Position numbers and translations under genes: made by a program. DNA of 64,000 bases, taken from contig CP099850.1 in the NCBI GenBank assembly GCA_030062745.1, positions 4,216,001-4,280,000 on the forward strand, in the 5' to 3' direction. Below the pieces are notes generated by a model. That model ran no database searches. It was not told the DNA's origin and was given only the letters and a program-made list of their open reading frames with translations. Positions 45,862 through 63,962 of this stretch are shown here, piece by piece. This DNA comes from Capitulum mitella. Taxonomy: Eukaryota; Arthropoda; Thecostraca; Pollicipedomorpha; Pollicipedidae. Each line of letters begins with the position of its first letter. The first letter of the stretch is position 1.

Positions 45862-47079
45862 CGGACTGTTGCGTAATTTCCGCTGCTTCTCAGTGCTTTT
45901 GCTCAGAGCAAAAGATGCCCAGACAAAACATGAAAGCAATGGCATGCTCTTTTCTGGACCTCTGTCTAATGCTGATTAACTCAACACATGAACAGCTTTG
46001 GTGACACAGATCTATACACATGTGAAAGCCTACACCATGCTTGACAATCTGCACATGACACAGCATGAAGCACCAATAAATCTGATCCTGCATTGGCCAA
46101 ATCTCAGGTAAATGTTCGGCATAGGGTGGCTCTGCCATGATCTGATACAATCAACTTCAGCATTTCCTACATCTGCTTTTATGAAACAACCAGAGCGATA
46201 CCACCATGTGGTTGTTTTATGATATTCCCAATCATCAGTCTGGACTGTCACAGCTTGTAACAGTCATACAGTCTTGCCCCAAAAGATCTGCATGGCACTT
46301 CTAGCAACTAATAACCTGTACAAGAATAGTGGTCTCTGAATCAGGCCTTGCAAGATTTCACAATGGCAACTAATGCTTGTACAAGAATAGCAACTTCTGT
46401 GGGCTGGGGGCCACACCATCATGAATCATGTAGTCAAGCTGGCATCATTCAACAGCGTAGACACTGGTCGAGTATCGAAGGCTGCCCCCGCTTCTGTCGT
46501 TCTGTGCGCTCGGCGAGGGTGGCGTCTGCTGGTCGTATCGTGCTCCGCCGCTGGCTGCCGTAAAACCGTCCTCAGAAACGGCCGTCAGCTGGACACCCGT
46601 CCCGAGTAGCGGCTGTCAGCTGGACACCCGTCCTCAGTTGCGCTTGTCGGCGCCGCCGTGGCCGGACCTGTGAGGACACAGGGTCAGGTGTCAACACACG
46701 ATTAACCCGGTCACCTGCCGCACCGCGGGCAGCACGGCGGGCACCACTACACGCTGCGGGTCTGCGATCACACGACAAGACGTTAGACGGCACGGTCAAA
46801 AGGTCTTTAACAGCGGCAATATTCCGGACCTACGACGCAGGGCACCCCACATTTTCCACGCGCCTTTCCAATTGAAGCCCATGCCTTCTATGATTGCTGG
46901 AACCTTCGTGGGTAAAAAGCCAACGTACGACCTCAACCCGAACTCTCCTTCACAAAACTGCATCGCGTCCTTGTCTGATTTCAGGGATATGGTCGCAAGG
47001 GGACGTCAACCTATTCTTGGGGAACGCTGGTGATGACTATGCTGCTAACATTTCCTGGTAGCTGTAATCGTCAGGAGTG

Positions 47080-47353
47080 CTACTTGCCACACAAACATTC
47101 ACACCACCACCTATGACGAGGACACCGATACGGAAATCTGAACCTCCTGACCATGATGGCCGGGTGACCGCGGCCGGCCAGCACGCACCCGTCGCCGGCG
47201 GCCGCCGCGCTGCGGACACACTCGTCCGTCTCCACCAGGAAGGGCGAGTCCATGGCGCCGAAGCCGGCGATGATGCCGCCCTCCTGCACCGAGGACGGCT
47301 TGGAGCGCAGCGTGAACCCGCAGCACTCGTTGCAGTACGTCTGGTCGGGGTCA
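47080..47353 (-). CDS. GSS: GSS exon 11, C-terminal lid and possible extension
   Basis: Acceptor CGGCCCGCAG, phase 2. It encodes DPDQTYCNECCGFTLRSKPS and VQEGGIIAGFGAMDSPFLVE. The Arg and Lys of LRSK and the GIIAG turn match the human LRTK and GVAAG lid. The human protein ends about here, whereas this frame runs on through a Cys/Arg-rich tail to TAG at 47082-47080. Splicing to a small exon near 46640-46670 (SGHGGADKRN-stop) is an alternative. Confidence 0.82.
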
Positions 47354-50300
47354 CTGCGGGCCGGGAGGCGCGCGATGTTCAGCTGCTGGCGCTCCGCAGT
47401 GGGACCAGTGGAGCGGAGATCAAGCCGGCCACAGCGTTGTGCACAAACGCATCACGACGACGATCATACGGCATGACATCATGGCAACAGCTTTAGACAA
47501 TCGTCAGGGTGATGAGTCCACCTGAAATGCGGCAAACATGAGAAGAGCCCCCGAAGAACCAAGTGCAGGAGACGACACATCGCCAGGGCCGGCGATGTCT
47601 TTCTCCCAAACAGGACTCGACCCACCTCAGGATGTAGCCGAAGACGCCCAGCTCGCCGACGGCATCCACCAGCTGCGGCCCGCCCTCGCCGGGCCGCAGC
47701 AGGTAGTTGGGCTGCACGTGCGGCTCGATCAGGTCCATCAGGATGTAGGCGCTGCGCTCCGGGCTGTGCCGCACGCCCTCCAGGATGCGCGCGATCTCGG
47801 CGCCGTACACGTTGTTGCCGCCGCCCTCGCGCTGGGGCTTCAGCACGTAGTGGTGCGGCGCCGCCAGCGCCATCTCGACCGCAGCGTCGCCCTCTGCGTC
47901 CTGTCGCGACGTCAGGTGTCAGCACGAATCACGACTGCAGCGTCCAGTCGCGACGTTAGGTGTCGGCACGAAACCCCTGGACAGGTGTTAGTTACCAAAT
48001 GACCTTGAAATACGGTTCACGCGGTCTGAGTCTCGGCCGTTGTCGGTTTACAGATGTTGCCGTTTTCGGACCCCGCGTGATATGACACGCAGCCGAGGCT
48101 GGAGGGCGGAGCCGGCTGGTGCCAGGGCGCGGTACCGGCCACGCTCACCATGTCCAGCGAGTAGAGGCCGGTGAAGACGGACCGGCAGAGGGCGACCTCG
48201 TCCTCACGCAGATAGCGCTCGAGCACGCCGGGACGACACAGCTCCTGCTGCACCTGCGGCGCCGGCCCGCGCACGGTTAACGCGGCCGAGCGGCACCCGG
48301 GAGCAGCGAGGCAGCAGCGAGTGGCGGTGTCGCCCCGGCCGGACAGTGGGCTCAAACGGCGATACATCGCGGCGATGGCATCTCATGGAACTAGAAGTAC
48401 AAGGGAATGTCTACGGTACATTCTTTTTCCTAGTGCTAGAATTATCACCAAAACTATTTTTCTGCGTAAACGTAGGCATTTTTACACCGGGCACCGATAA
48501 ATGCGCAGCTGTTACAATGCGGATACTAGCAGTGACGCGACGTAGCCGTGTTCATCGGTCGGCAAATCATCCTTAGGAAGCACGGATCACATGGCCGCAC
48601 GATCGCGCGACGGACCTGAGCTCCCAAAGGTCTTCACCACGGCACAATCACACCGGGGAGACGCGACTCTGTGGTGCCACCGAGCTCACATCTGAGCCGC
48701 CCGACAGCGATCGGCCCACCTTTTTGGTGCCGGCTAGGTGCAACTGAATGGAGGGCGATTTAATGGCGAGCGACCTCTCGATGAGCAGTCTCAGCGCCCA
48801 CTCGCGCTCTGTGGGATACTGGTCCGGGGAGTAGCCCACTCGGTAGTAGACCACCGCCACCTCGCGCCCGTCACTGCAGATAGTCCACACCGGCTGCCAT
48901 CAGCACCATACAGAGAGAGCACTTTCATTCACCCGCCGGGGAAAAGGTGCACGAGGTACATCTTCAGATTTCAAATCAGAAGCGGATAAGCCGAATGCAG
49001 TGATGAAGAAAGACGAAAGAGATGATAATGAAGAAAGAATGAGAGAGGGGCTTAACGCGTGTCATTTCAGAGGCCACTAACGAAAACTGCTGCAGGTCAT
49101 CACAAGTTTTGTGTTGTGATCAGGCGAAATAAAAATACATTCAGAGCAGATAGATCCCTTTCCTGGTCATTATGACTACTCTCACCGTGATCGAGATACC
49201 CTCACGATGATCCCATGATCCGGTTCGTGTTCGGGTGAACAGCTTCAGACAGACTATTACACAGACTCTATTCAAAACAACGCCAACGGTTGTCAGCATA
49301 GCGAATTCTGTTTGTCCCCCGGCTGATTTCTGAGCCACTCACACCATGAGACGCCGGCGGTCATCCAGCGACGCCTGGTCCAACAGCTGGGCGAGTGACC
49401 GTCTGATGACCTTGATGTCGGGACGCTGCCGGTACACTTGGAATTCGTGGAAGCGCTGGTCGGCGATGTTGATGGTCCGGTCTTCCACCACAAACAAAAT
49501 CACCGCTCTGTCAAAACGCAGGTCATCGGGGTCAATGTCAGAAATGACTCGCCCGTTGTTTTGAGAGTGCGTGCAAACAAGGAACTGCGAGTGCAGGACG
49601 TCTACCAATTATCTCGCCCATGCCTAAAGGGAAAGGCAAATATTTTCCCTGGCGGACTTTCGCCATATCCAAAGATCAACGAAAGCACCGTACTCAGACT
49701 GCCCGTACGGTTTCGTACACCAATGCTACGCATTTCCGAGAGGCCTTTCTTCCAAGGCCATTGAACCTCATCACTATGACGTCAAAAGTTCGACAATGCT
49801 TACTATTTATACCATTTCATTCTAATTCGCTTGCGCTTTGCTTACACTTATGACCTACAAGACGCTGGTATCGTGCTGGTATAACGCGATATGTGTCATA
49901 ACGTCAGTCACTCACAGATCTCGTATCACGCAACCAATGTACATGCATTTATTGTGACTTCTTAATATGGCACCAATTTATGGCTGAAAACGAATTACAA
50001 CCCTTTCAAGGACATCTGGTGTTGCTTTTCAATTTTAAAACGTACGGTCGTCGAATGACGTCTGGCTCTATCAAGTCGTTGAGTAGTTCCCCAGAAAGTA
50101 GACTGCACATTGTTAACCTCCCTCAAACTTGGTCTGTCAAGCAAACTTGAGAAGATATTTGCAAGATCGATACGCATGATACGTTTAAGTAGTTATCTCA
50201 ATTATTTGTATTATGGTTCGAAGCAAATGTGAAAGCTTTTCACCTTGGCCCGCTGATCCTTGCACTATGCAGAAATTTTGCACCTGACCTTGGCTTGCAA

Positions 50301-53300
50301 CCTGATTATTACCCCGAACTTAATTATTTTCCAAGCCCAATGTCGCACAACACTGTCTATCAAACGGCATCTCAACTGCCCAAAGCCGTCCATTATTTCA
50401 AGAGGCACCCCGATGGACAATTTTTACACCCTCATATTTTTGCCGTCTCCGCCGTCATCGTAATAATTGTACAGTAGAGCAGCATGCAAAGCATAAAATT
50501 TTGGCGATTTGATGTTAGAACTGACCCATCGTTGTAGTTACAGACCATTTTTAATTCGAATCAAGATCAGATCGAAGAAAGGCCATCTATCATTACCATC
50601 TATCACCGTCATATTCTAATATGATTATCACTTGACGCTGCTAGTGGCAAAATTTATGGTTTACTTTCAAAGACAAGAGTCCTGATCACCAACAGGGGTA
50701 AACATAGTTTCCATTCCTGAAAACATCGTTAAAAATTACCCCAAGACGGGTTCAAAATGATTCTGAGGTAATATCAGATCAGTGACACCACTACAAAAGT
50801 TTCGTTTTTTTTACGAAACTTTGCGTAGAAAAGTTTCGGAAAGGTCAATAACCTTTCGAAACACGATATGTTGTAAAGCATAGGCCGAAACAGTCTTGCA
50901 TCATAAAACGGATACTATATCTCCGTCAGATTCCTCAGAAAGAAGCCAAAAAGTAACCCGCTCCAGACCAATGGCTTGCAAGCTCTGCAGCATGACATAA
51001 CTCGGTGGCCTGACATGACCTGTTATTTTTTTCCTGAAAAGGTCATGACGTCAGCCGTTCGCCGCCAGTCCATGAAAAATTTATCTCGGTGCCCCTCCCC
51101 ATTTCCTTCGTCCAGCGGGGGCTAAGACGCTCACATGCAACGAAGACCTGCGCAGAACAATAACAGGCGTCACAGTTACGACCGTGGCGACGAGAGCTCC
51201 CAGGCGCGCCCACGAAGCTTGCGCTACGCGCCAGTCAAAGAGCAACTTGATAGCTAAAACACAACAGCTGATACCGACAACCTAACATGGCGCCCCAGCG
51301 GCGGCCACGCGGGCGGCCGGTCGCCGGCCCCGGCAGCCGTACCGTTCCACGTTGTACTTGTCCCAGGCGTGGATCATGCCGGCAGCAATACCCTCCAGGG
51401 ACGTGTTGGCCGGGATCTGACCACAGACGTGACATCAGTCTCAGGGCTGCACCAGGCAACGGAAGGCAGACAGACGAACACCGGGAGACGCCTGGCAAGA
51501 GCAGGGGACTTCAAATGAGGAGGGAAAAGGAGAACGGGAAACCGTGGCGGTATGGGACGGCATGGCCAGCTGCAGGCGTGAATCATTTACATCTGCGAGG
51601 ACTGGGGCAAAATACGTATGCAGTAAACCCACTTGTAGTCTTGCACGTCATGATCCAGTAGTCAAAAAAATGCTTAGGAACTTCTTTAAAACTAGTGACA
51701 CCGACCGCCTCGCAATACTATCACCGTAACAAACAAACAAACAAGCAAGCAAACAAACAAACAAAACAAAACAGGCGGATTTCACAAGTCTGGTCCATTA
51801 TGCATTTAACTACAACCCAGTGCAGCTGGAGAGAAGGTCCTCACCAAGGTGAACATGGGCTTTCGCTACATTTCTTCTTGATATTCGTGTCGCCGAATTT
51901 AAGCAAATAATGACAACTGCGCAAGGGCAACATCTCCCTCTTTGGTTCACCATTTTTGCGTGAACCACATGAACAGCACAAAACATATCAAAGCCATGAA
52001 AGCCTGAGAAAATCTTCTGTCTTACTGCTCACCTGGTCAATCTGGTTGCGGTGGCCCAACAGGGTGAGGCCATACCTGCAAAAGCAAGTCATGAGACAAG
52101 CAGATACGCCAAGGAATCGGACGGATGCCACCAAATGAAGCTTACAATGATTGTGGTAAAATGACGCATATTCTTAGACTTAGACAGGGAGTTCAGGCTT
52201 CACTGGAGCTTGTCGTACACGTCAATCTTCCACATAAAGAGGCGCTAGGCACCAGCAAACAACCAAGTGCGTTCGTGAGTATGACAAGGCGCCAAAACCA
52301 CAGGCACAAGTACGGCTAACGTGATATCCGACAACAAAACGCGACCATAAAACCCCAGTCACGGTCCGCCAGTGAGATGCATGCCACAGCTACAGGACGA
52401 CCTCCGTCAATATCCCAAACCACCATCAGCAGGCCTGGGAGGTTTTTTTTTTGGTTGGGAGTTTAGTTTAGTTTAGTAGTTTAGGATTAGTTGGGAGGTA
52501 CCAATTCACTAAGAGAACCATGCCATGGTCCCTGCCACCGCCGCAAACCACCACTTATATTGGGCGTCACAGCAAAGTACTGGCACCATTAATGGAATCA
52601 CACTACAGGGACGAGTCCAGCCAGCGTTGTAACAAGCGTCTCCACGTGTCAGGAAAATGGGCTTTCGGTTAGATTTTACACTAGTCCAAAATCAGTCGAC
52701 AGTCGAGCATCTTTCAATAGTTTCACCTTCTCCATTCCCAAAAATGCATGCCTTTGAAGAAGAGTATAATGGGTTCAGTCGATAATTTTGCGGTGTATGC
52801 TTCAAGGCAGGCAATGCCATACAGTGGCGTCGCCAGAATTTAAAGGCTGGGGGGAGGCAAATCAGGCAGGAGCAGATTTCGACCTCAAAAGGTCATGTTT
52901 CCACGCATTTTTCTTTTGTTTACTTTTTCTTCCGCGGATATCGACGAGCGGCATCTTGCCGCATTATATGTTCCTTTTCTAAGGTGTGTTGTCTCATAAA
53001 TGATGCACTGTCGAAGGCTAACAGGAAATCCAGCGCTTCGCTACTGGTGAGGGGCAGAATCAGAGGAGAATAAAACTTGAATCATAAGACAAACACATGA
53101 ATGCTTTTGCGAGATTTTAACAAGTTACCAGGTGCTTGCCGATCTTTTTTTTAGTTTGGTTGAAAATTAATTTCATGGGAACAGAACTGCGTGGAGATCT
53201 TTTCCTCTTGAGGCCGTGAGTTCATATTTAATGCGATTCCTTCAGTATGGATAACAATAATTTGCAAACGAATTTCGTCCGCATTGTTAGGAGCTCAGTT

Positions 53301-56300: not shown

Positions 56301-59300
56301 CAAGGTGCAACTACTTGTAATCCGGCTCAAAGTTCTGGAGTCAATAAAAATGGTCAGTGCGATTACGTTCATTTTTTTAATGACTTTGAAATTCTGCTGA
56401 CCTCCCAAGAATTGTTTTTCTCTGATTAGTCAAGCTGGGGGAAAAGCTGTGTCACGCTGAAGTCAAACTTCTTCCACTAAGTCCACAATGTAATGGTGGG
56501 GCGTCACGATAGAAAGTGGTAAAATACCCGATCCTATCCAAGGTTTGTCCTCACAATGCCATCAGACGTAGAGAAAAGGTAGTGCAAAACCCTATGCCAT
56601 ATATGATCACAATGACAAAAACAATCGCAAACTAATGACAGCCAAACAACAAAAAACAATACACGCATAACTGCACGGGACTACCCAGCCGCCTACTACA
56701 CCCAGGAGTCAAGCGCGCGACCACGGAGCCGGACACCGGAAGAGCCTTCCCGGACCAAGCGCCCCACCCAGGACCGCCCGGGCCGAGACAGGGCGGCGGC
56801 CGCGGTGGCGTACCTATGCATGTCAGTGGTGGTCTGGCTCATGGCACTCCAGCCCGCCGCGATCACATTCGTCTCCACCTGGCTAATGGAGCCGTGTAAG
56901 TCGCAGGCGAAATAGTCGGAGCGGAGCAGGCCCAGCGTGGCCGGCTGAAAGTAGAGCGGGCTTCAGAGGCGGCACCCGGCCGGCGGTGGCTCTGTGATGG
57001 CGGCTGACGGCGCGACCAGAGCGGCGACGACGGGCGGGGAGCCGGCGGCGGCGTCCGGCGCGAGACCGCGGCCAGGTCAGGAAGCCAGCGCAGGGGCGGC
57101 GGCACCAGCAGGCAGAAACCGCAGAGCGTTTTGTCAGCGGTAGCATCGTCCGCGCTCGGGGAAGGGACAGAAAACGGCGCCTCGGAACAGCTCCCAAGAC
57201 CGCGAGAAGGCAAACCGGGGCGAGAGGGCACTAGAGGGGCGGCGCCAAGCGGTAAAGCGGGAAGCATGACTATACCAGCGACAAAGCGACGAGAGACAGG
57301 CCCCAAGCATCTCAAACCGCTACCAGCTGACGCAGCTCCGCAAACAGCAGAATAGTGGCCTGCTAATCGTCCAGCGCGAGCAGACCGTGCGAGGGACAGC
57401 ACAACTACAGCAGAACACACGACTTAACGGCCAAATGTATCGGCCATCCGCTGGCATCGCAGCACACCCGTAATGCCTTCTAATCAATCAGGTTTCACGG
57501 ACGTTCTTCCGGAAAGTTTCTCTGCAACATTTTCTGCGCCGCTTTCTCGGGGGGGGGGAGGGGGGTCAACTCGAGAGCAACGGATCAGTTTCTGGGTTGG
57601 CTGCATAACAGTGAACGAAAAACAACCACGGGGCACGTGGCTTAAATCGGCGACCCCTTGGCAAACCTCTGGACGCGCCACTTTCCACGGCTGCAAAAAA
57701 AACGCGTTCAACCATGCTCACACTCCGACCCAGAGGCCTGAACTTCTTTCTTACCACGAGGTTATCCCATTCCCAACTCAAGGTGTAACGCCAGCGATTC
57801 AATGTAAAGGTCTGAGGCGCGCGGTATTAGGTCTGACCCGCGCCAAAATCGTCGAATGACAAATACACTGAAGTAAACGCCAGTCAATGTCATACAGCAC
57901 GGGAACTTCTAAAACTGCATTCGCAAGAAAGACATCCAAAAACGTGATTTTCCTTTGTCGTGAGAAGGGAGCCGTCTGACGCCGGTGCGCGCGCTGGCAA
58001 AGGATAACATGTTTTACTAGACAAAATGACGTAACAACATAATATCAAGCTCAACATTGTTCTCTGGCCAAATGACGCTAGATTTGATAAATAGCACAAA
58101 TTGTTTGAGTGCCTGTGATGACCTAATGTGGGGTCAAGGACAGATAAATATACCGACCTCTCATAACACTATCATTCGTGTCGCACATCATATCATACCA
58201 CCGTACTGCAGTTCATATGTATACACAACGAAGAAGAAAATTCAACTGAGATAAAAAAATTGCCGACATGGTCACCTTTGTGATGACCCATTGGCAAAGA
58301 TCTTGAACAACACTGCCAAAACAAATTACGCCAATATATGCGGACTTGATTTAAGGTAAGGTACTGGAAGTTCGATACTGCTGACTTTTAGATATCTCGC
58401 AATTTCGCTAAGATGACGATTCGTTGCTCCCTCCGCGCCCCGTTAACTCGCCAATGACTGGGGGGAGGGGCGTTTAACGCCCTTCAGGCGCATTTCCTAA
58501 GTATCTCCCAAACGGATAAACGCTGCGGCTTGAACTTTAAGTACCCTTTCTTACAACAATTGTGCAGACACTGACAAAATTGAAAGTGGGGACATCGTAG
58601 GTCACGTCTTAATGATGTCAAAGACAACCATCTTTTGCAATTCGACGTTCAGCTTAACTTTGCCACCATTTTGTCGGTGCTTTTACAGTGCATGGCGACT
58701 GTGGCTTGCCTTGCGTATCAGCAAGATCTGAAAGCCCAACAAAGAGCTCCTCTGACCTCATGCTAGGTCATCACACGTCAGCTCTGCATTTTTCACTTTC
58801 CGGGTCTAGTGAGAGTATATTTTGCAAACGGAACTGAACAAACTGATTTCTGGATACAGCCGGATAAACTACTGAATCTTATTGCAAGACACTGTAGCAT
58901 ACAATGCAGTTTCTTGCAACAATGCGGCATATTTTGTAGTGGGTTTTGACGTTCTTATGCAGATTCCAGCTTCGCGAGTAAACTGGTGGAGTCGATTTGA
59001 CATTCTCGATGACCGGTGTGAGAATATAGGACTTTGCAACGTAGCGCAACGCTCCGTGAAAATGTGCAACATGATCCAAAGTGACTTGCAGGGTCATCCA
59101 GAGGCTGCAGATGGAGTTCATTAGCCTGCTCGTGACAATCCGAGTTTGAAACCACAAAACGTTGCAAGGTAACGCAAGGTAACCATTACAAGGTAACAAG
59201 GAGCCATTCCAAGGGCACCAATGTACCTCAAGCACTTTTGAAAAGTCTTTTTGAGAATCTCCGTGTCAAACGGCCCTTTATGACCCGTATGACTTATTGT

Positions 59301-62300
59301 CACGAACGTCAAAATTTGACCATGCCTCTGAACTTGACCTCTGATGACCTCGGGTCCGGTGGCACTCAGAATACGAGACCAAGTTACCAGAGACATACTA
59401 CAATGTAGACCTCAGTTTCGGCCTGCTTTTCATTTCGGTTAGGCAGCTCTGGATTCGGCCAGGAAGACTGGAGAGAAGAGTCGTTTTTGGGTCTTTGACC
59501 GGACCTGTGGCGTCATCAATGATCTAAAAGTGAAAAATTTAAATGTCACAGGATAGCATGGCTCAGTGCTATCGACTGCCGTTTGGATGGGACAAAGCGG
59601 GCGACTGGTTCTCGAGATAGACAGCAGGCGTTAAACGCCCCCCCCCCCCCAGTCAACGGAAGGTGGCGAAATAACCCAGTCAATGCCGGGTAAACGGCGG
59701 GTAACCACCGGCCGATAAGCGGGTAAAGCATATTCAAGTTGTTTTAATGAAGTTTCTTTACATGAAACGTCCATGTGCGGAACATTGAAATGAAAACGAT
59801 TTGGTTACACATGCCCATCTTTCACAGAGTAGAGACCATGTTCACTAATACATGCAAACAATAGTCGATGCGGCCAAAAACATGAGTGCAACGGGCGCAT
59901 GCGCATGAAAAACCGCACATGGTATCCTAAATACGATTATAGAGCAAATCAATATATCAATATAAAAGACTTTGAGCTACCAAATAACAAATAAAAATAC
60001 CAATAAAGATTTACATCTAAAACCATTTGGAGCATCCCAGCATTTCCACCGCTTTCCGACTGTATACTGAAACATTTAACTCTCAGAGTGTACAATCTCA
60101 TTCTATGTCACATGTATGTCACAAACAACGTGCAAGGCAAAACAACAAAGAAAAGATCGCAAGTAAATTGACCACGGCAGATCTGCCGTACTTTTTCTGT
60201 TCTGTTACGGAATAACAAAAGGAAATGTACTCATTACTGCCGTACTTTTTCTGTTCTGCTACGGAATAACAAAAGGAAATGTACTCATTACAACAAAGAC
60301 ATTCACAGGAATGAGAAAGGCCACAAAAACACCACAATGACAGTCCAAGATAAATAAGGCTCCCGTGTACACATCAAGTAGGAATTCTGGAAACAATAAA
60401 AGCTAAAAGGTGGTACGCTGATGGTGCGCATTAATTGGTCATCCATCTTCCGCGCACCCTGAATATACACTTTAAAATCCCCATCAATTGTAATCACTCT
60501 CATATTGCTGATTAATGAAAAAGTAAATCAGCAAAACGCAACAAAAATAACATTGTACACAAATTCGCAGATCCATGTATGAAACACCAAATAAAAAAGA
60601 AGCAAGTACGTCATTCGAGTCGGGTAAGTAAAACATGGCGTTCACAGCAACATCAAACGCACATTAGCGAGAGCCATCAAAAGGCTTCACAAAGGAGAAT
60701 CAATATTGTTCTTGACAATGTCATGGCCTAAGGATCAGAATACGTGCGTAAGAGTGGGACACAACTTCTTAGGTAGCAAACGATAAAACCTGATAAAGGG
60801 TACGCTACGGTGCACGTTTTGGTAATGTCACCATGTATTAGTTCTCCTCATGTATTAGTTTTTGTCGCTCCCATTTTTAGAAATGCGAAAACCAGTGAAC
60901 CGCGTAATTAGTTGATCTAGTTGATTTAGTCTGACTCCGACATCACAGCCTATCGTCCGCAAAGTCTGTCCCTCACAGCACAGTGCTAGCAACACCGCAC
61001 TCCCATCACAGGCACAAGCACCCCAGCCTCAGCAGACCCGACCTCCCCCCGCTCCCCGCTTTCCATTCCGTGCCGGCCCCACAGCCAGCGCGTGGCCCGC
61101 AGAGACCAGCAGACCGCCCACGGCCCGTCCGGCGCCGCAGCATGCCCCGACCCCGGGCCGCGGCCGCCCCGCGACAGCCGAGCCGACCAGCCACGGGGGT
61201 GCACAACGCCGCCGCGGCGAGGGGGGGGGACAGCAGTGCCGGTTACCTATGGCAATCGTTAAGGACCGAGGAGACAGCGGCGAAACTGCACGAGATCGTG
61301 TTGCACTCCACTTGCTTTAGGCCTCGACTGGGAACGTCGTAAAAATAGTCGCTGCGCAGGAGGCCAAGGCTGGCGGCCTGAAAACCAGAACGCGTTTTGC
61401 AGGTGGCCACGTGCCGAGATGGTCACTGCTCCGTCTCCTCAAGCGTCTCACAGATCGTAAGCAGCATTGTTTGGCGAGAGAAAGCCGCCAGTGACGCTCA
61501 TTAGTATAATCACAATACATGTACCGACATGCAATCATGCTCATCACGGTGACCTGGATGGACACACGTCGTAGAAAGGCCGCATACAGAAGTGCGCCAG
61601 CCGCTCCCCGCCGACGCAAGGGTCCGTGCGATCACACACCACGTCAGCAACAAACGCACACAGTAAATACGTCGGTGTATAGTGCGCGTCAGACGGATAA
61701 CGAAAACCGCATTTCATGCATCTCAAAAATTTCCTAGGAAACCTAGCAGTCACCGTCATGGGGAAATGCATTTTACCCATAGGTAAGGCGCATGTTTATG
61801 CGCACATGTAATGAGAAAAAACATTCAGTATATGCTTGAACCAATTCTTAAGAGCACTAGAGAACTGGAGAAAGAAACGGCATTATCTTGACGACGACGA
61901 CATCTTTCACAGGACTGGCGCGTGCTCCCGGAGGCGTGACGACGGAGCCCGACACCAGACCAGGCGCGCACGCAGGCGGCGGACAGACTGACAGAGAGAA
62001 TTCTGACACAGCCCAGACGCTGCACGAAAATAAACGGACCAGACGCAGCTCAAGCAGTGGCCACCCCCCACCGGCCAACTCTGCGGGCACGATTAGTCTA
62101 CGGAGGGAGTGGTGGGAACATTGTTTATGCAGTTTACAGGGACGCAGCATGCCTTAAATGGTTAAAGAAATGCCGATACGTCCCAACAGAAAATCCTGAA
62201 AAAAATGTACGAATAACACATCGAAGAGTGAAGACTGCGATACATATTAACGAGATGAATGCAAAATACAACCATGATCTGGCATCAAGTAGTCGTGAGC

Positions 62301-63962
62301 TAAATGCATTAAGCAAAAAGAAGCAAGTTAAAAGCAGCACAGAAAAACTCCAACAGTAAAAAAGCAGCCAAAACGATATGCACGTGATGGCAAGGATGAT
62401 CTTGAGGCAGTTGAATATCATAAAGCAGGGAAAGAAGTACAGAATCAATACATATATGCATGAAAATCACATCACTCCTATTTATTGTTATATAGACTCA
62501 ATCCATGCACAAATCTACATCAATAACGCTTTCTCCCCGTTACTCAGACATCATGGTCACAGAGCTACAGTGAGGTGACAGTAATGAAAATTGCTTATCA
62601 CAGCTCTAAGCGTCGCGCGTGAATCGGCAACGCCATCAGCCAACCCACCTGGGCCGGTCCTTCGTCCATCACCGTGGTGTAGATGTCGAACAGCCGTGCT
62701 GTGAAATCGTCCACCTGGATCGTACTGCACGCGACGAGGACAAACACAGAGTCAGCGCAACGTTCTCACGCATCAGACGCCCTGGGGCTCTTTAGGGTTT
62801 CCCATTTCCTGCACTCTGAGAGCTGCTGACCTGACAGTATTTCATCTATTCGATGGCGGTAGATGACATAGGTACGCAGAGACCGGCACATCTTTTTTTA
62901 TTTTCAGTCTTCAGTTTATCGCCCAAAAGACCAGAATTCAAAGTCATAAGGTCGTCCTAATCCATCCTCCTTGGTCGCACATAACCATGAGAATATTCAA
63001 TCCCAGACGTGCAACAATTTTCTGGTCATGGCTCTTTTGAGCAAAACGGACAAAATGCATTGGTTAGGGAATGGACATTAGAAATGTCATATTCCCTCTT
63101 CCCCCAACAGCTTTACAGCAGGCTGTCACCATCCATATACACATATTGATCTTTGCTGGCTTCCAAACCCATAACACGTCACCATCAGATGCAGGATGTC
63201 AAAATCTTGGACCTTCGGCGTACCTGCGCCAGCGGACTAGGCAATCCCGCTACCAAAACCGTGATTCACCTCACGCGATCCGGGCGGGTCCGACCGTGAG
63301 CTCACCTCTTCAGGCAGCTAGTGATGAAGTCGCGGTCGTGGGCCACGCAGACGGTCAGCTTGTTCATGACCGTCTGCGCCAGAAGGCCCGTCCGGAAGCC
63401 GCGCGCCGGGAACAGCGACGGGAACAGGAAGAACGGCGCGAACCGCACTTCGTCGTCCGAGGTGGATTCGCGCAGCCTCAGGGTGCCTCCTGGGGAACAT
63501 CCGGGTGTGGCATGACGTCACTGTCGCATGCCCTGAACTGACTGGGCAGTGTGTGCTGAGGAAGCTAGATGAAACTGGCAGAGGGCAGTCCCTCAGGTAT
63601 GTGTAAATTGAAGTAAAATAACTTCAGCAACATTACTGTCAGCAGGTGCCTGCAAAGACTATGGCATGACAAAAGTGACATTAGTGCCAAAGCTGTATCA
63701 CAGACTGCAAGGTCATCATGGAGGTTATCCTCCTTGGAGGGTTCAGGGGCCAGAAATGAAAAGCTGCAAAGCAAACAAAATGAAAAAGGAATAGAAAACA
63801 AGGAGTTCTTTATGATCAGCATCCTTCTGGTTCATACAAAAAGTTTGAATATGGCTTACCATGCAGCAGAAGAAAGTCACGTTCATTCTTTGACACTTCT
63901 TCCAAAACTTTCTCATCCACAGGGAACTTCAAAAATGGATGAGTGCTTGGGGGTTGGGACAT
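47080..63962 (-). CDS. GSS: Glutathione synthetase (eukaryotic type), 11 exons plus one alternative exon
   Basis: The ATP-dependent enzyme joins gamma-glutamylcysteine and glycine in the cytosol, the last step of glutathione synthesis, and acts as a homodimer with an ATP-grasp fold. The spliced frame gives, in order: [35 protein letters not shown] with VE.N, INIADQRFHEF, DIKVIRRSL, EVAVVYYRVGY, AGTKK|VQQELCRPGVLE, GLYSLD, HYVLKPQREGGGNN (ATP-binding glycine loop) and FTLRSK...EGGIIAG (substrate/ATP lid). All are collinear with human GSS. With one of the two 131-bp exons the model is 1584 nt (527 aa), against 474 in human. The surplus is mostly a C-terminal tail after DSPFLVE that I cannot verify. 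Phases agree at every junction. The start ATG (63962) is inferred from the preceding sequence and the fit of phase 1. Confidence 0.95.
47626..47900 (-). CDS. GSS: GSS exon 10 (ATP-grasp loop LKPQREGGGNN)
   Basis: Acceptor GTCGCGACAG, donor ATCCTGAG|GTGGGT, phase 0 to 2. It encodes AAPHHYVLKPQREGGGNNVY, ILMDLIEPHVQPNYLLRPGE and VGELGVFGYILR. The KPQREGGGNN loop that closes over ATP is intact. Confidence 0.97.
48149..48253 (-). CDS. GSS: GSS exon 9 (VQQELCRPGVLE)
   Basis: Acceptor GGCGCCGCAG, donor GACATG|GTGAGC, phase 0 to 0, 35 codons. It encodes VQQELCRPGVLERYLREDEV and SVFTGLYSLDM, against VQQELSRPGMLE and ATFAGLYSLDV in human. Confidence 0.97.
48720..48873 (-). CDS. GSS: GSS exon 8 (EVAVVYYRVGY)
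   Basis: Acceptor CTATCTGCAG, donor AAAAAG|GTGGGC, phase 2 to 0. It encodes DGREVAVVYYRVGYSPDQYP, then LRLLIERSLAIKSPSIQLHL and AGTKK. The Arg and Tyr of R-V-G-Y correspond to substrate ligands R267 and Y270 of human GSS. Confidence 0.97.
49343..49507 (-). CDS. GSS: GSS exon 7 (INIADQRFHEF, IKVIRR)
   Basis: Acceptor GTTTTGACAG, donor CATGGT|GTGAGT, phase 2 to 2. It encodes AVILFVVEDRTINIADQRFH, EFQVYRQRPDIKVIRRSLAQ and ASLDDRRRLMV. The Asn and Gln of N-I-x-D-Q and the VIRR strand are as in human GSS. Confidence 0.96.
49508..51342 (-). other. GSS intron between exons 6 and 7
   Basis: AT-rich, with no exon recognised. Its upper part (about 50570-51180) resembles part of DNAAF11 intron 4 (40660-41160), sharing CCTTCGTCCAGC and GGGGCTAA, so both probably hold old copies of one dispersed repeat. 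Confidence 0.5.
51343..51416 (-). CDS. GSS: GSS exon 6
   Basis: Acceptor TGTGGTCAG, donor GGAACG|GTACGG, phase 0 to 2. It encodes IPANTSLEGIAAGMIHAWDK and YNVER, matching the region of human GSS around AEGLAAGLVSAWELYG. Confidence 0.93.
51725..51773. repeat. (CAAA)n-type microsatellite
   Basis: About eleven tetranucleotide units, mostly AAAC and AAGC, in the GSS intron between exons 5 and 6. Confidence 0.9.
52033..52075 (-). CDS. GSS: GSS exon 5 (43-bp small exon)
   Basis: Acceptor CTTTTGCAG, donor GACCAG|GTGAGC, phase 2 to 0. It encodes YGLTLLGHRNQIDQ, the helix after the substrate-binding exon. Both versions of exon 4 join it with the same phase. Confidence 0.85.
52076..56813 (-). other. 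GSS intron between exon 4a and exon 5 (4.7 kb)
   Basis: No further exon was recognised. It contains fragments of dispersed repeats (GGCGTCGCCAGAATTT at about 52826; CTGGCTACGCCCCTGGGG near 56282) and a G-run near 56115. Minus-strand open frames at 54322-54507 and 55537-55851 do not match GSS convincingly. Confidence 0.6.
56814..56944 (-). CDS. GSS: GSS exon 4a, alternative version with altered substrate-site residues
   Basis: 131 bp, acceptor CTACTTTCAG, donor CATAG|GTACGC, phase 0 to 2, the same length and phases as exon 4b. It encodes [20 protein letters not shown] and then [33 protein letters not shown], VE.N and the final HR are kept, but the ISCS serines become IAAG. Only one of 4a and 4b can be used: including both or neither breaks the frame into exon 5. 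Whether it is expressed is unknown. Confidence 0.88.
56945..61246 (-). other. GSS intron between the alternative exons 4b and 4a (4.3 kb)
   Basis: No exon was recognised. It holds G/C-runs at 57549 and 59639, an inverted pair of GGCGTTTAACGCC repeats at about 58473 and 59629, and a 54-bp tandem duplication at 60184-60291. The flanks of both alternative exons are very CpG-rich. Confidence 0.6.
60184..60291. repeat. 54-bp perfect-like tandem duplication
   Basis: TGCCGTACTTTTTCTGTTCT and the bases after it, to CATTAC, occur at 60184-60237 and again at 60238-60291, with a single mismatch. It is a recent duplication within a GSS intron. Confidence 0.95.
61247..61377 (-). CDS. GSS: GSS exon 4b, canonical version of the duplicated active-site exon
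   Basis: 131 bp, acceptor GGTTTTCAG, donor CATAG|GTAACC, phase 0 to 2. It encodes [20 protein letters not shown] and then KQVECNTISCSFAAVSSVLN, DCHR. It keeps the arginine of RSDY, the Glu and Asn of VECN (Mg/ATP ligands E144 and N146 in human) and the serines of ISCS, which correspond to human S149 and S151 of the gamma-Glu-Cys site. It is mutually exclusive with exon 4a by frame. Confidence 0.93.
62649..62724 (-). CDS. GSS: GSS exon 3 ([15 protein letters not shown])
   Basis: Acceptor GCGTGCAG, donor GCCCAG|GTGGGT, phase 2 to 0. It encodes [20 protein letters not shown] and DEGPAQ, against [20 protein letters not shown] in human. Confidence 0.96.
63306..63489 (-). CDS. GSS: GSS exon 2 ([12 protein letters not shown])
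   Basis: The acceptor is GTTCCCCAG, phase 1 to 2. It encodes [40 protein letters not shown] and VAHDRDFITSCLKR, matching the SYAPFTLFPSPVP region of human GSS. It is very CpG-rich. Confidence 0.93.
63860..63962 (-). CDS. GSS: GSS exon 1 (start)
   Basis: ATG at 63962-63960 opens MSQPPSTHPFLKFPVDEKVL and ends RDFLLLHG before GTAAGCC, phase 1. It meets exon 2 as [13 protein letters not shown], comparable to the LLNGVLMRT region of human GSS. Codons are AT-rich and CpG-free, unlike the following exons. Confidence 0.8.

Follow-up and report, generated by a model that had tools for sequence, protein, structure and literature searches.

Whether one gene for glutathione synthetase (GSS) can encode two enzymes through a choice between two versions of an internal exon is the question raised by a 64,000-nucleotide stretch of the genome of the barnacle Capitulum mitella (assembly GCA_030062745.1, contig CP099850.1, positions 4,216,001 to 4,280,000), which was analysed in full and is called the window here. 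It corresponds to C12:4216001-4280000 in the searched assembly (477 Mb, 16 contigs). Two related exons, designated 4A and 4B, stand at the position of exon 4 of the GSS gene, and judging from sequence comparison it is likely that this one barnacle gene gives two enzymes by use of either 4A or 4B and, as part of the same explanation, that the exon choice is widespread in Pancrustacea. The pair was located as follows.

61377-61247, minus strand: GSS exon 4A, canonical version (ISCS), 131 bp, grouping with form 1, the canonical exon version of other animals, by log-odds (+55.9).
56944-56814, minus strand: GSS exon 4B, alternative version (IAAG), 131 bp, sharing 31-33 of 43 residues with each of three barnacle-type proteins.

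Both exons are entered in phase 0 and left in phase 2, are bounded by GT-AG borders, and have the acceptor TTTCAG in common (donors, GTAACC for 4A and GTACGC for 4B). They are identical at 19 of 43 residues and 65 of 131 bases, and when the 4B peptide was used as a tblastn query on the window, 4A was matched with E = 1.75e-8 and the next match had E = 0.14. Size, borders and phases agree with those given in the initial annotation, which had also predicted that use of both exons or of neither shifts the frame; both spliced sequences ran into early stops, 12 codons into exon 5 in the transcript lacking 4A and 4B, and within 4B in the transcript containing both. The difference it had described between the motifs ISCS in 4A and IAAG in 4B, with Arg, Glu and Asn (human R125, E144 and N146) retained, was seen in both exon sequences. 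Exon 4 spans human GSS residues 118-164 (these limits, and R125, E144 and N146, were counted along the printed 2hgs alignment), and 4B carries Ala149 and Gly151 where serines stand, plus an altered stretch downstream. Mutually exclusive use of 4A and 4B is well supported by comparative sequence evidence, because this frame logic is joined by the location of both exons in one gene, by the retention of 4B in three barnacle-type proteins and by exon pairs with the same borders elsewhere.

The GSS gene occupies the minus strand between 63962 and about 46.6 kb, and its exons 1-11 are spliced to one open frame with GT-AG borders. Its remaining exons were assigned as follows; those numbered 1-11 each gave a single match in the window, and exon 12 was too short for this test.

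63860..63962, minus strand: exon 1, with the start codon.
63306..63489, minus strand: exon 2.
62649..62724, minus strand: exon 3.
52033..52075, minus strand: exon 5, entered in phase 2.
51343..51416, minus strand: exon 6.
49343..49507, minus strand: exon 7.
48720..48873, minus strand: exon 8.
48149..48253, minus strand: exon 9.
47626..47900, minus strand: exon 10.
47189..47353, minus strand: exon 11, 3' border uncertain.
46634..46667, minus strand: candidate terminal exon 12 containing the stop codon; this assignment is uncertain, being one among several donor choices.

When the 477-Mb assembly was searched with the domain PF03917, six stretches were matched, all at the GSS locus, and 4A and 4B were two of them; besides 4B, the PF03917 matches in the window are five single exons of the GSS gene. 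The GSS relatives P0003 and P0084, in both of which the domains PF03917 and PF03199 are present, matched nine and five stretches, respectively, all at the GSS locus and none elsewhere. These assembly searches match exons, not whole genes, and some GSS exons went unmatched.

Isoform A was most similar to Pollicipes pollicipes isoform X2 (P0003, 79% identity), a jgi protein (P0004, 74%) and Amphibalanus amphitrite isoform X1 (P0005, 71%), all three of which contain a 4B-type exon. The 4B exon of the window is identical to theirs at 33, 33 and 31 of 43 residues, respectively, similar to the remaining exons, and it was found intact and conserved inside full-length barnacle proteins, not as the degenerate or unconserved copy that the initial annotation had named as grounds for rejecting its proposal. 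4A resembles form 1 of other animals, and 4B is kept in all three barnacle-type proteins. The contig that encodes the 522 codons of P0004 measures 2,247 bp, and since this leaves no room for the introns, it is probably spliced RNA. RNA-seq was used in the annotation of Pollicipes (PMC8917513).

A search for GSS proteins matched 3,628 proteins, of which the best 120 were analysed; a further protein search returned 16 of 18 scored candidates (those named being a springtail and Hymenoptera), and 12 new proteins were added. The second exon version, form 2, was defined by the motif G(F/W)(G/S)(W/H/L)(L/M)G. Of the best 120 of the 3,628 proteins, 94 had Ser at the position of human Ser151, 21 had Gly there and 5 had one of each; among the 21 with Gly are the three barnacle proteins and Zootermopsis P0058, in other respects a form-1 protein. 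Exon segments were obtained from 131 of 132 proteins, namely 100 of form 1 (85 distinct), 33 of form 2 (30 distinct) and 3 of barnacle 4B. Gly151 was present in 30/30 distinct form-2 segments and in 4/4 4B segments, and form 1 itself usually has Ala149 (in 83 of its 85 distinct segments), so that the consistent predicted change of the pocket across animals is Gly151. P0058 (Zootermopsis nevadensis) was the sole case of Gly151 in a form-1 exon among the 85 distinct form-1 segments. Arg125, Glu144 and Asn146 were invariant in an alignment of 42 proteins, form 2 and 4B included.

Thirteen pairs of GSS versions, picked by eye, were compared over the exon and its flanks. In six of them, from Tigriopus (copepod), Macrobrachium and Panulirus (decapods), Neocloeon (mayfly), the Trinity cluster isoforms i4/i12 and a jgi pair, the aligned flanks were without difference and divergence was found solely between borders matching those of exon 4 in the window; an exon pair peculiar to one animal is therefore not what was found. 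A survey of arthropod GSS genes for both versions, which had been suggested as a check, thus succeeded for crustaceans and a mayfly, and in the barnacle relatives only 4B was recovered. Five read-through gene models contained both versions in one protein, the second version coming first in each.

Fourteen sets contained both versions (nine pairs and the five read-through models; one pair spans two species), and in 85 of 91 comparisons among them form 2 was more alike than form 1 (means, 27.1 vs 21.9 of 38 columns). Three read-through models lose the end of form 2, a bias against higher form-2 likeness. This slower change of form 2 than of the canonical version suggests that it may have a specific job. 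Outside barnacles, form 2 formed a single clade (100/98 in a 51-row tree, for which 13 named long or cut rows were set aside and the remainder sampled from the 120; 95 in a 120-row quick tree). At least three cysteines in the loop before QVE were found in 30 of 33 form-2 vs 25 of 100 form-1 segments, and the form-2 motif elsewhere reads IASGFG(W/H)(L/M)GP, mostly with this cysteine-rich loop. One jgi protein (P0104, 548 aa) has an unusually long loop of 70 residues with CC pairs at exon 4, and a form-1 ending.

Several observations weigh against the explanation of one barnacle gene with an exclusive exon choice that is widespread in Pancrustacea. Flanks were not identical in 7 of the 13 pairs: the Cloeon pair (171/181 and 360/360 identical), the pair from Schistocerca gregaria and S. 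cancellata (119/120 and 312/316), three jgi pairs (5-11 differences upstream of the exon and 7-28 downstream) and two hymenopteran pairs, whose flanks were only about 55-63% identical and which must hence be separate genes. None of the barnacle proteins retrieved had a 4A-type exon (0/3), the database being clustered at 90%, which may mask one. The exon order is also reversed, with 4A first here vs form 2 first in the five read-through models, and 4B shares Gly151 with form 2 but is without the cysteine-rich loop and GWLGP. Separate form-1 and form-2 genes such as those of the sawfly Athalia rosae (P0019, P0127) would allow that 4A and 4B likewise lie in two genes, or that 4B is a decayed copy; this is very improbable, however, given one set of the other exons and a 4B that is intact and conserved in full-length barnacle proteins, and two separate complete GSS genes, which the initial annotation had raised as an objection, are ruled out by the single exon set and single locus within the completeness of the 477-Mb assembly. 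Exon choice may have given way to gene duplication in sawflies. In Athalia, the flanks of P0019 and P0127 are identical at 66/120 and 198/315 positions and the contigs are of equal size; form-2 proteins were also found in an ant and in Diprion (P0128, P0134).

The same differences bear on the origin of 4B, for which two readings come close to each other. At the position of the form-2 motif GFG(W/H)(L/M)G, 4B reads GWSAMS, and it was therefore not classed as form 2. We slightly prefer the reading that 4B is a replacement which originated within the barnacle line and bears the same change to Gly, at about an even chance; descent of 4B from the form 2 of Pancrustacea, followed by remodelling and a move, falls somewhat short of that. 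Gly151 in common speaks for descent, but the missing cysteine loop and GWLGP, the reversed order and the log-odds of 4B (+12 to +24, around or under the form-1 minimum of 18.6 and well away from the form-2 maximum of -33.7) speak against it. The trees, built on 38 columns, which are too few to place 4B, can be read both ways: the 51-row tree did not place 4B within the form-2 clade, yet in the approximately unbiased (AU) test it could be forced together with form 2 (p-AU 0.284) as well as with 4A (0.32), and in the 120-row quick tree the constraint with form 2 raised the likelihood above that of the unconstrained search (p-AU 0.931). Descent would also fit the failure to find a canonical form-2 exon as a third version in the window, where five form-2-type queries matched only 4B and 4A within the gene and gave two weak matches elsewhere (E 0.005 and 0.007, the second spanning a stop) that were not form-2-like. 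When a composite form-2 query was run against the 477-Mb assembly, another contig showed two weak matches (E 0.097 and 1.03); because the same search missed 4A and 4B, and because the five stretches matched by P0084 did not include exon 4, absence of a form-2 exon from the assembly is weak evidence.

In the mechanism that we propose, a splicing regulator would select 4A or 4B, and transcripts with neither or both exons would be removed by nonsense-mediated decay, so that degradation of out-of-frame transcripts probably enforces the choice. Steric exclusion is unlikely because 4.3 kb separates 4A from 4B. Exon 4 encodes the part with Arg125, Glu144 and Asn146, which is predicted to line the cysteine side of the pocket for gamma-Glu-Cys, and inclusion of 4A would yield the ordinary GSS enzyme.

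The region contains seven inverted pairs of 18-23 nt. One of them (57033-57050 paired with 61595-61612) is located upstream of both exons and was considered for RNA pairing that would enforce exon choice, but at 18 nt, 83% and GC-rich it was taken as chance. The intron between 4A and 4B also holds a 1.2-kb stretch between 22-nt inverted repeats (58460-59648), which belongs to a dispersed repeat family of the genome (best other copies about 70% identical; 40 of 1,688 candidates scored), and a 54-nt unit in two tandem copies, 98% identical (60183-60290).

For the enzyme containing 4B, we regard it as most likely, with about equal chances of being right or wrong, that it still joins glycine to gamma-Glu-Cys but differs in kinetics or regulation and is used in certain tissues, at certain stages or under certain stresses. 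The initial annotation had proposed that the swap alters substrate choice; its exon exclusivity is supported, and the altered substrate choice only in part. A changed acceptor, by which 4B and form-2 isoforms would extend another gamma-glutamyl or thiol peptide or add another amino acid, is suggested by the position of the exon along the dipeptide pocket and by the Ser151 to Gly change in every distinct form-2 and 4B segment, but the form-1 protein P0058 also has Gly151, and the side chains that bind the glutamate presumably lie mostly outside exon 4. Cyst-nematode relatives of GSS with an altered pocket lost the canonical activity, as PMC5919673 reports, which would fit a changed acceptor; in the potato GSS structure treated there, however, two serines hold the cysteine of the dipeptide through the backbone. 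We infer that these are human residues 149 and 151. Such backbone contacts could survive a change of Ser to Ala or Gly, which favours a kinetic or regulatory isoform and makes a new acceptor rather unlikely. GSS forms dimers in which substrates are bound cooperatively, and a 4B subunit that is a poor catalyst might instead pair with a 4A subunit and tune the dimer; in this role the 4B subunit would require the fold, not full activity, and it retains Arg, Glu and Asn. Retention of these catalytic residues in 42/42 aligned proteins suggests, however, that catalysis is needed, and dimer tuning appears improbable. More far-reaching, and doubtful, is the proposal that an ancestral pancrustacean swap gave two distinct GSS-type ligases, the second for another thiol peptide or for separately controlled glutathione, and that in barnacles the old exon was lost and a new one evolved in its place, with the same Ser151-to-Gly change.

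Mutually exclusive exons in enzymes are already known, and as far as seen, a pair that swaps a pocket in GSS is undescribed. In vertebrate studies of other enzymes, KHK exons 3A/3C and PKM exons 9/10 are exclusive exons that change kinetics or regulation. OGDH exons 4a/4b are likewise duplicated, mutually exclusive exons that retune a metabolic enzyme, but in that other enzyme the swap sets calcium sensitivity, according to PMC7969005. The GS-like effectors of cyst nematodes are, like the proposed 4B enzyme, GSS proteins with an altered dipeptide pocket; they differ in being separate secreted gene copies substituted on the glutamate side, and alternative splicing goes unmentioned in the main text of PMC5919673. 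Drosophila Gss1 and Gss2 are two GSS copies per genome produced by a recent whole-gene tandem duplication (PMC6814777 and PMC10449164). Closest are the X1/X2 pairs of Tigriopus, Macrobrachium, Panulirus and Neocloeon in database annotation, which are like the window gene in family, exon, borders and Ser151 vs Gly151 versions, but whose second version has IASGFG(W/H)(L/M)GP and mostly the cysteine-rich loop, which 4B does not. Among the titles and abstracts listed in a literature search, none described a GSS exon pair, although an earlier description may exist elsewhere, and glutathione is unmentioned in the main text of PMC3303723 on insect exclusive exons. The statement of the initial annotation that no GSS with such a pair had been described thus agrees with the literature searched, but the pieces exist in public annotation as unexplained X1/X2 entries.

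GSS is usually treated as a single, fixed housekeeping enzyme. If the reading preferred here, of one gene and an exclusive choice of exon 4, is true, these animals may make two kinds of a basic antioxidant enzyme from one gene, and glutathione supply or thiol chemistry would have a control point, not described in the literature searched, that is kept in springtails, insects, decapods, copepods and barnacles.

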